This document shows positions 7,521 through 25,385 of a DNA stretch of 33,111 nucleotides, piece after piece. The position numbers and the translations under genes were made by a program. How positions within the stretch are numbered: the stretch's first letter is position 1; each line of letters opens with the position of its first letter. The notes beneath the pieces were generated by a model. The model ran no database searches, was not told where the DNA came from, and saw only the letters and a list, made by a program, of their open reading frames with translations. Location: positions 1-33,111 of the forward strand of contig JAIYDB010000013.1 in assembly GCA_027487695.1 (NCBI GenBank), in the 5' to 3' direction. This DNA comes from Cytophagaceae bacterium. Its GTDB lineage: Bacteria > Bacteroidota > Bacteroidia > Cytophagales > Flexibacteraceae.

Positions 7521-8333
7521 TTACATAAATATCTCCCACAACTTTCGGAGCATACTTATTACTATAAACAGTCCAAATATATAATTAATTGTAGTAGGCT
7601 TTATTTTTTTGCTAGCCTTTACACCGAAGGGCGACGCTAGAATTACCCCTGCAGCTAGGGTTAAAGCAACCGGAAATACAATATAACCTATGCTGTAACT
7701 CTCTATTTGGCTCTTAGGTTCTTCAAACAGGTTAAGAATAGTGGTCCATAAACTGGTAATGCCTATTACCCCAAGTGAAATACTATTGGCAAAACGGACC
7801 TGCATTTTATGAATACCATTCAAAATTGGGATAATCACAATACCTCCGCCTAGTCCACTTAAGGGTGCAACCATACCGCTCACTAGACCAATGGTGAATA
7901 ACTGTTTATTGTTCAATATTTTAAAACTATTGGCATCGTTCTTTCTGGCACTCATTAAGGTACGGTAAAGCATAAAGGCCATTAGTCCTATTACGATGAT
8001 ATTGAACTTTGCCTTATCGTAGTAATCGGTATTTACAAATCCTTTAAGCACTAAGGTTGCTGTAATAATGCTAACCAGACCAATAATAAGCACCTCTCTT
8101 GGGTACACATTTTTATCTTTAAACAGACTTATACTGCTGGTTAAACTGCTAAAGAAAATAGCGAACAAGGAATTAGCCACTACATATTGCGCAATTTCAG
8201 CATCTAAAACACCCAAACTGGTAAGTACAGCTGGCAGAATAAGTACAAATAAAATACCTCCTCCTATTCCTATAAGTCCGCCAATAAAACCGCCGAACAA
8301 TCCAAAAACAAACAGGAGTATATAAGTGTGCAT
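7521..8333 (-). CDS. TauE/SafE (TSUP) family permease
   Basis: Integral membrane protein of about 270 aa in the TauE/SafE (TSUP) family, whose members move sulfite, organosulfonates or related anions. The internal duplication is visible. The first half starts with GLFGGFIGGLIGIGGG, and the second half repeats the glycine motif as GLVSGMVAPLSGLGGG. Several other hydrophobic segments account for the usual 7-8 helices. I chose the ATG at 8333 (MHTYILLF). An in-frame GTG at 8357 lies inside the stem of an intrinsic terminator and is unlikely. The gene follows selD on the same strand after a 282-base gap filled with hairpins and ending in that terminator. The substrate is unknown; a sulfur or selenium oxyanion is a guess from the neighbour. 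Confidence 0.9.
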   Translation of the reverse strand: MHTYILLFVFGLFGGFIGGLIGIGGGILFVLILPAVLTSLGVLDAEIAQYVVANSLFAIFFSSLTSSISLFKDKNVYPREVLIIGLVSIITATLVLKGFVNTDYYDKAKFNIIVIGLMAFMLYRTLMSARKNDANSFKILNNKQLFTIGLVSGMVAPLSGLGGGIVIIPILNGIHKMQVRFANSISLGVIGITSLWTTILNLFEEPKSQIESYSIGYIVFPVALTLAAGVILASPFGVKASKKIKPTTINYIFGLFIVISMLRKLWEIFM

Positions 8334-8351
8334 AATGGCAATATAAAAATA

Positions 8352-8377
8352 CCGCACTGCTTTTGCAAACAGTGCGG
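8352..8377 (-). terminator. Intrinsic terminator between selD and tauE
   Basis: A perfect 8-bp stem CCGCACTG/CAGTGCGG is followed on the minus strand by a T-rich stretch (TATTTTTAT). It sits 18 bases before the tauE ATG and 238 bases after the selD stop. It may end the selD transcript or act as an attenuator for tauE. Confidence 0.7.
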
Positions 8378-8398
8378 CTTCGAGGGTTAATTGGGTGT

Positions 8399-8595
8399 AA
8401 TAAGGTATGGAACCTTATTCACAGCTTTCGCTGTGAGCCAAAATAAATTTGGCTTTTTGGTATAGCAAAGGTATAACCTTTGGATATTACCGCAATTACT
8501 TATGTAAAGTTTTTTAAAAACTTTCGTCACTTCCTAAGAAACAATAGCAAAAATTGCCATTTTATTAGGAACCATTCAATTTTCTTATGAAAATT
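8399..8595 (-). other. Dense hairpin array, candidate structured RNA
   Basis: This gap contains at least seven self-complementary elements. In minus-strand order they are: AATTTTC/GAAAATT (8578-8595); TTCCTAA/TTAGGAA enclosing AATGGCAA/TTGCTATT with one G-U pair (8531-8571); a long A/T palindrome (8506-8524); CAAAGGT/ACCTTTG inside a GGTA/TACC pairing (8459-8491); AGCCAAA/TTTGGCT (8436-8454); CACAGC-GAAA-GCTGTG (8420-8435); and AATAAGGT/ACCTTATT (8399-8419). The last three abut with no spacer. The GAAA loop is a GNRA tetraloop only when read on the minus strand, which points to an RNA made in the selD-tauE direction. No open reading frame or known RNA family is recognised. It could be a long selD 3' UTR, a tauE leader or a small RNA. 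Confidence 0.6.
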
Positions 8596-8615
8596 TTAAG
8601 CTTAAGCACAATAAA

Positions 8616-9671
8616 TTAATCTAAGACAACAACAACTGCCGAAGTTTTTTCGGTTAATTGACCAATGCAAGCGTAAAAATGCTGTGCATCATTCATAAAA
8701 GCTTCAAAATTTGCTGCTTCTTCAGGGTTTACAGCAATTAACAATCCGCCAGATGTTTGAGGGTCGGCAACTAATAATCGGTTACGCTCATTATGAACGG
8801 CCACTTTTTCACCATAGCTTTTCCAATTTCTATTGGTACCGCCAGGGATACACTTTAAATCTAAATACTTATTTACCTCAGGTAAAACAGGGACTTGGCT
8901 AAAGTTCAACTCAGCTGAAACATCACTAGCTTCGCACATTTCAATTAAGTGTCCTGCAAGTCCAAAGCCTGTAACATCGGTCATAGCTTCAATACCCGAT
9001 AGATTGCTAATTTCATAACCTATGCTATTTAACTTAAGCATATTCTGCGGTCCTATTTGGCTATCGGCAGGTTCTAAAACGCCATTTTTCTGGGCGGTAC
9101 TTAATATCCCTACCCCAATAGGTTTGGTAAGGTATAACTTAGAACCTGGTTTTGCGCCTCCGTTCTTCTTCACTTTATCAGGATGCACCAAACCAGTAAC
9201 CGCTAAACCAAAAATAGGTTCAGGACAATCAATTGAATGCCCGCCAGCTAATGGAATTCCCGCCTTCGCACAAATAGCCCTTGCCCCTTCTAAAACTTTA
9301 CCGGCCAATTCTGCAGGCAATAAGTTTACAGGCCAACCCAAAATAGCGATTGCCATAATTGGCTTTCCTCCCATTGCATAGATATCTGAAATAGCATTTG
9401 CAGAAGCGATTTGACCAAAGTCAAACGCATCATCTACAATAGGCATAAAGAAATCGGTAGTAGAAACCACTGCTTGGGTATCGGATATCTGAAAAACTGC
9501 GGCATCGTCCTTTTCGGCATTGCCTACCAGTAAATCTTTAAAAGCAGCTTGGGCAGGACCTGTATGCAAAATGGTATCTAAAACTGCTGGCGCTATTTTG
9601 CAGCCACATCCTGCACCGTGCGAATATTTGGTTAGTAAATAGGTTTCTGTATCGGGTGTTGAAGTATTCAT
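8616..9671 (-). CDS. selD: Selenide, water dikinase (selenophosphate synthetase)
   Basis: Makes selenophosphate from selenide and ATP, the selenium donor for selenocysteine and for 2-selenouridine in tRNA. At 351 aa it has the normal length. The N-terminal glycine-rich motif SHGAGCGCK gives C22, C24 and K25, equivalent to C17, C19 and K20 of the E. coli enzyme; the active-site residue is cysteine, not selenocysteine. The AIRS-type domains follow, with DDAAVF, TTDFFMPIVDD, AISDIYAMGG and the C-terminal ADPQTSGGLL. No selA, selB or mnmH lies in the window, so the selenium end product cannot be told. The start is an ATG after 47 bases of non-coding DNA shared with the divergent TPR gene. Confidence 0.97.
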   Translation of the reverse strand: MNTSTPDTETYLLTKYSHGAGCGCKIAPAVLDTILHTGPAQAAFKDLLVGNAEKDDAAVFQISDTQAVVSTTDFFMPIVDDAFDFGQIASANAISDIYAMGGKPIMAIAILGWPVNLLPAELAGKVLEGARAICAKAGIPLAGGHSIDCPEPIFGLAVTGLVHPDKVKKNGGAKPGSKLYLTKPIGVGILSTAQKNGVLEPADSQIGPQNMLKLNSIGYEISNLSGIEAMTDVTGFGLAGHLIEMCEASDVSAELNFSQVPVLPEVNKYLDLKCIPGGTNRNWKSYGEKVAVHNERNRLLVADPQTSGGLLIAVNPEEAANFEAFMNDAQHFYACIGQLTEKTSAVVVVLD

Positions 9672-21481: not shown

Positions 21482-21500
21482 GACTCAATTAATTATATAA

Positions 21501-21537
21501 ACTCCCCTAATAGCAGTGCTATTAGGGGAGTTTTTTT
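21501..21537 (+). terminator. Strong intrinsic terminator after the DinB-like gene
   Basis: A perfect 14-bp stem ACTCCCCTAATAGC/GCTATTAGGGGAGT with a 3-base loop is followed by seven T. It closes the long plus-strand run of genes. Confidence 0.93.
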
Positions 21538-21644: not shown

Positions 21645-21680
21645 AAAACAAAAAAATCGCCACTCAATGAGTGGCGATTT
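21645..21680 (-). terminator. Terminator of ssrA
   Basis: On the minus strand a perfect 12-bp stem AAATCGCCACTC/GAGTGGCGATTT with a 3-base loop runs into a T-rich tract (complement of 21645-21653). It directly abuts the tmRNA 3' end. Confidence 0.93.
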
Positions 21681-21681
21681 G

Positions 21682-22046
21682 TGGAGTCGGAGAGATTCGA
21701 ACTCTCGTCCAGGCAAGGATACCTGAGGCTTTCTACACGCTTAGTTTTGCTTTGATTTTCGTTCGCAGGGCCGATGCAAAACTACCTACCCCACAACTTA
21801 TCTGCTAAATGTCGGCTCTATTAACAGTATCAAGAACCCAAGTTCCGATGTGTCGACACCTCTGAATCACCTGCGACGGAACGGGGCTGGTGAGAGATGC
21901 TAGCGGGCTTAACTGGTTAAAATTAAGCGGCTAGTGCGAAAGTTTCTTCGCCTTTTGTTGTTCGAAAGAATTTTTAAAAGGAGATTCTATCAACTCCTTG
22001 CGTGCTTACTTCAAATAGTCACAGGCTGTCAAAACCGGTCGACCCC
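21682..22046 (-). ncRNA. ssrA: tmRNA (transfer-messenger RNA)
   Basis: Rescues stalled ribosomes and tags the unfinished protein for proteolysis. The 5' end GGGGTCG (at 22046) pairs over seven positions with CGACTCC at the 3' end, and the T arm GAGAGTTCGAATCTCTC next to it is typical. The 5' part contains the usual GGTTTTGACAG. The tag frame at 21923-21952 (minus strand) reads GEETFALAA then TAA, close to other Bacteroidota tags. The 3' CCA is not encoded and must be added. It lies downstream of rplL, where rpoB is usually found. No TAnnTTTG box is evident directly upstream, so readthrough or processing is possible. Confidence 0.96.
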
Positions 22047-25312: not shown

Positions 25313-25385
25313 CACGGGAGGAGGGCCTCGAACCCCCAGCCTACGGTTTTGGAGACCGCCACTCTGCCAATTGAGCTACTCCCGT
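25313..25385 (-). tRNA. tRNA-Trp (CCA anticodon)
   Basis: On the minus strand the 7-bp acceptor stem ACGGGAG/CTCCCGT, D arm GCTC...GAGT, anticodon stem GCGGT/ACCGT with loop CTCCAAA (anticodon CCA) and T arm GGGGG-TTCGAGG-CCCTC all form. The discriminator base is G and the 3' CCA is not encoded. It is the first element of the secE-nusG-ribosomal protein transcript, 44 bases before secE. Confidence 0.97.

Follow-up and report, generated by a model that had tools for sequence, protein, structure and literature searches.

A putative short, structured orphan RNA with a promoter and a terminator of its own upstream of a TauE/SafE permease gene in a Cytophagaceae bacterium

Background

In Bacteroides thetaiotaomicron, high-confidence intergenic small RNAs (sRNAs) are defined by the combination of a start site and an intrinsic terminator; 27 of the 49 RNAs so defined are strain-specific, and 76% of the intergenic sRNA candidates carry a housekeeping promoter (PMC7366714). 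The Rfp RNAs of Flavobacterium psychrophilum are independent transcribed regions (PMC9723704). The housekeeping promoters of the Bacteroidetes are recognizable by TAnnTTTG at -7 and TTTG near -33 (PMC7366714; PMC9723704). Genes of the TauE family are known riboswitch targets, as described for ykkC subtype 2d (PMC7266159).

Here we analyze the gap between selD and tauE in a window of 33,111 nucleotides (the whole stretch of DNA under analysis) from a Cytophagaceae bacterium (assembly GCA_027487695.1, contig JAIYDB010000013.1). An earlier note had described this gap, read on the minus strand, as one array of at least seven hairpins followed by a terminator, and had favored a riboswitch or attenuator, with a long selD 3' untranslated region (UTR) or a small RNA as alternatives. 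We propose that the tauE-proximal part of the gap probably encodes a short, structured orphan RNA bounded by a promoter and a terminator of its own, a predicted RNA that is possibly also a terminated leader of tauE.

Results

Extent of the structured region

The features of the locus are as follows.

7521 to 8333, minus strand: tauE, TauE/SafE permease of 270 aa (Pfam PF01925, E 2e-31)
8345 to 8461, minus strand: predicted short RNA of about 117 nt, comprising H5, H6, H7, linker, terminator and U-tract, its start placed from the -7 box
8351 to 8378, minus strand: intrinsic terminator of 12 bp with two G-U pairs and a GCAA loop, then ATTTTTATATT
8379 to 8398, minus strand: linker ACACCCAATTAACCCTCGAA, 20 nt, unpaired in the minimum-energy fold
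8399 to 8419, minus strand: H7, AATAAGGT-TCCAT-ACCTTATT
8420 to 8435, minus strand: H6, CACAGC-GAAA-GCTGTG, with a GNRA loop
8436 to 8454, minus strand: H5, AGCCAAA-TTTAT-TTTGGCT
8459 to 8491, no strand assigned: H4, imperfect palindrome GGTA..CAAAGGT-TAT-ACCTTTG..TACC, overlapping the -7 box
8466 to 8495, minus strand: promoter, TTG (8495-8493), 19 nt, TACCTTTG (8473-8466), an exact match with its -7 box inside the H4 palindrome
8506 to 8595, minus strand: H1-H3 (8578-8595, 8531-8571 and 8506-8524), selD 3' region, of ordinary or weak structure
8616 to 9671, minus strand: selD, selenophosphate synthase-like, 351 aa (Pfam AIRS and AIRS_C; 80 selD relatives)

Each of the seven hairpins, like the terminator, folds at the positions reported in the earlier note, with perfect stems of 6-8 bp in six of the seven hairpins; the imperfect parts are H2 and the outer part of H4. 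The tauE ATG occupies 8333-8331, and the terminator stem (8378-8351) stops 17 nt upstream of it rather than the 18 first given. The hairpin run is genuine and exceeds chance: the 197 nt from 8399 to 8595 hold six perfect hairpins that do not overlap and have 6 bp or more each, with 43 stem pairs in all, whereas dinucleotide shuffles of the same stretch average 0.69 such hairpins and reach 4 at most (0 of 3000 reach six), and the stretch ranks top in hairpin count among 3226 genomic windows with a GC content of at most 0.36, drawn from the 646 kb of this genome, in stretches, that served as background for these and the terminator comparisons.

The hairpins do not form the one continuous array that had been supposed. 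Folded whole, the gap has minus- and plus-strand z-scores of -6.9 and -5.2, and the contributions of its parts differ: 8461-8345 folded separately reaches -9.1 on the minus and -3.8 on the plus strand (-8.0 and -3.1 without the terminator), the H4 region -2.4 and -2.8, and the selD side (8496-8615) -2.4 and -2.2, near background. Exceptional structure is limited to the 117 nt between the predicted start and the U-tract; with a promoter inside H4 and H1-H3 near background, the unit consists of H5-H7 and the terminator alone.

Strand dependence of the structure

The GNRA loop of H6 had been taken as an argument for folding as RNA; GCGAAAGC also forms a very stable hairpin as DNA, so this argument counts for little by itself. 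Folding of the minus strand as RNA nevertheless finds support in other features. The three G-U pairs, of which H2 has one and the terminator two, form on the minus strand only, the GCAA loop of the terminator and the U-tract following its hairpin are likewise confined to that strand, and the excess of structure in the predicted transcript is far larger there than on the plus strand.

These differences also bear on a DNA-level explanation, according to which the palindromes are operators or relics of sequence-templated palindrome formation. H1, H3 and H4 do fold about alike on both strands, H4 overlaps the promoter, and unrelated, very long perfect palindromes exist elsewhere in the genome; against this, the G-U pairs and loops are strand-specific, the z-scores within the transcript differ between strands, and no repeated copies are found in the genome, and we regard such an explanation as very unlikely. 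REP/BIME or another dispersed hairpin repeat was rejected, as the run is single copy in the genome.

The long palindromes elsewhere form a group of their own: perfect 19-30 bp hairpins that have 3-nt loops and GC-rich cores, differ in sequence, mostly lack a U-tract and are scattered over the genome. They include (by stretch and position) L171:9673-9735, L173:13350-13408, L189:3463-3515, L169:5889-5935, L154:814-860, L159:11761-11807, L165:10518-10562, L185:2493-2535 and L156:7290-7330, and several have a common core like GCTGCCC..GGGCAGC.

Promoter and predicted start

The promoter form found in the gap is enriched in this genome. TTG-N19-TAnnTTTG occurs at 9 upstream intergenic sites where 0.9 are expected, with a spacer peak at exactly 19 nt, and TTG-N19-TACCTTTG occurs at 22 sites, against 1 for the reversed control. 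Of eight sites read by hand, six fall upstream of apparent genes and outside coding sequence, while two, about a quarter of the strict sites so read, look intragenic, which is a caveat for the site in the gap. The genes that follow include some that, by eye, we take to encode ribosomal proteins (S8-like, L13-like and S15-like); a tRNA-Pro (ARAGORN) lies downstream of one hand-read site, and a further site is found 40 nt upstream of the tRNA at 25385 in the window. Verified in this genome, the TTG-N19-TACCTTTG rule helps in finding other non-coding genes there.

Because the -7 box occupies -12 to -5 relative to the start (PMC9723704), the start is predicted to be the A at 8461 on the minus strand. 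The -7 box is part of the H4 palindrome, which could have arisen for another reason, and H4 is possibly an operator rather than an RNA hairpin. A genomic operator family built on H4 was rejected, the exact copy here being the sole one, with five one-mismatch sites. A second palindrome, TTACATAAGTAA at 8496-8507 on the minus strand, adjoins the -33 element with its center about -40.5 from the predicted start, and the related TTTTCATAAGAAAA sits in H1. Class II activators bind at about -40.5; an activator site with a regulon was discarded for TTACATAAGTAA, which shows no clear enrichment in the genome.

Terminators and comparable units in the genome

Terminators in this genome start a median of 24 nt past the stop codon and mostly within 40 nt, 11 of 99 lying beyond 200 nt. 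The tauE-proximal terminator is 237 nt past the selD stop, and at such a distance it probably ends a separate unit. A long structured selD 3' UTR would have selD transcription cross the gap to this terminator, with the hairpins shielding the 3' end; the shared strand, the lack of any earlier terminator after selD and the 11 distant terminators are consistent with it, but an exact promoter lies within the gap, the exceptional structure starts only past that promoter, and most terminators here begin at most 40 nt from the stop codon, which makes it improbable in our judgment. The role of selD itself is likely unrelated to tauE, since the genome has a match above cut-off to the tRNA 2-selenouridine synthase model.

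A scan of the 646 kb for the promoter form with a strong terminator at most 200 nt downstream and no intervening ORF of 100 aa or longer returned six units: tRNA-Phe, tRNA-Leu, tRNA-Pro, the tauE locus and two others. The fifth lies ahead of a YidC-like gene. The sixth, at about 18039 on the minus strand of stretch L171, combines a 20-nt promoter spacer with a strong terminator 173 nt on and no 100-aa ORF, and may be a further non-coding RNA or else a short gene.

Elsewhere, just beyond the 3' end of the tmRNA gene (21679-22046, minus strand), lie a perfect terminator-like hairpin of 16 bp (21499-21533) and another of 12 bp (21654-21680).

Attenuation or a riboswitch

The order that had suggested a riboswitch or attenuator (structured leader, terminator, transporter gene) is present. 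A conditional element of this kind would be a tauE leader that toggles between termination and read-through in response to a ligand, protein or ion, and it fits a strong terminator placed between the promoter and the gene to be regulated, close to the ATG and with no obvious other promoter. The position of the terminator alone is no evidence of attenuation, because 16 of 412 gene starts have a terminator within 60 nt. The other expected parts are missing: forbidding the terminator helix frees no competing helix (the same three hairpins remain, at -26.1 kcal/mol), no leader peptide with an ATG was found, and three simple hairpins lack the junction or pseudoknot typical of aptamers. Nor has the leader a match in Rfam or a homologue among 194 relatives, and we consider conditional attenuation unlikely. 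Control by protein-dependent antitermination or by an RNA-binding protein could still operate. A narrowly distributed new class of leader RNA, in which the three stacked hairpins sense a ligand or an RNA-binding protein and regulate termination ahead of a TauE/SafE permease gene, seems to us a decidedly slim prospect.

Searches for relatives

The earlier note had recognized no known family, and this holds: Rfam, searched at gathering and at permissive thresholds (E up to 10), gave just chance matches to unrelated families, with none to a ykkC model at either setting. DNA searches of the own genome and 194 relatives returned only short matches at chance expectation. The covariance search proposed in the earlier note, run with model R1 on these 194 relatives (none from the same genus), detected no homologue that could be aligned for compensatory changes in the stems; its weak matches, with a best E of 0.002 per genome, rest mainly on a terminator hairpin. 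No selD-tauE synteny was seen outside this genome, either at 80 selD loci or at the tauE loci retrieved, and the hairpin array is absent before other tauE genes of the order, two of which have an ordinary terminator ahead.

Discussion

Of the readings offered before, a small RNA agrees best with these results, as a putative minus-strand structured unit with promoter and terminator and not as the product of a single array. The predicted RNA contains no ATG, and its only frames, from GTG or TTG, have at most 11 codons. We suggest that RNA polymerase carrying the housekeeping sigma factor initiates near 8461, where the motif is present and transcription is what we infer from it; that the product, according to computed folds, consists of three abutting hairpins, the 20-nt unpaired linker and the intrinsic terminator; and that transcription would mostly halt near 8345 and yield a stable RNA some 117 nt long. 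H4 would then be promoter or operator DNA, and H1-H3 would belong to the selD 3' region.

Such an RNA may be an orphan sRNA that acts via the linker or via its loops, or else a terminated 5' leader that keeps tauE expression low, and the two options are compatible. Judging from the fold, the linker is a possible base-pairing region; a search for its targets found none better than for shuffled linkers. As the ATG follows 17 nt after the terminator and leaves little room for another promoter, tauE would probably be expressed by read-through. Alternatively, a candidate weak promoter over the terminator, TTTG-N19-TTATATTG, could serve tauE; it was found by eye, with 4 of 6 -7 letters, and sigma-70-like matches are there as well.

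If transcribed, the unit would add an orphan structured sRNA for a bacterium of the Bacteroidetes that has been little studied, and would provide a concrete case in which an independent sRNA can be weighed against a terminated leader just before a start codon; with no homologues, its wider impact would be small.

Comparison with known systems

The tauE locus resembles 5' UTR terminator attenuators and riboswitches such as ykkC subtype 2d (PMC7266159), which precedes TauE genes, in the order of structured leader, terminator and TauE-family gene, but has no Rfam ykkC match, antiterminator or aptamer-like junction. With the sRNAs of Bacteroides thetaiotaomicron (PMC7366714) and the Rfp RNAs of Flavobacterium psychrophilum (PMC9723704) it has in common a TAnnTTTG promoter, a short structured unit and a terminator. 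Unlike them, the tauE-proximal unit adjoins a downstream start codon, and the likeness is one of architecture, with no relation in sequence claimed. By the features used for sRNAs in PMC7366714, the locus has a housekeeping promoter and an intrinsic terminator and holds no coding sequence; on the features tested, it appears to fit the Bacteroidetes kind of intergenic sRNA, as a candidate.
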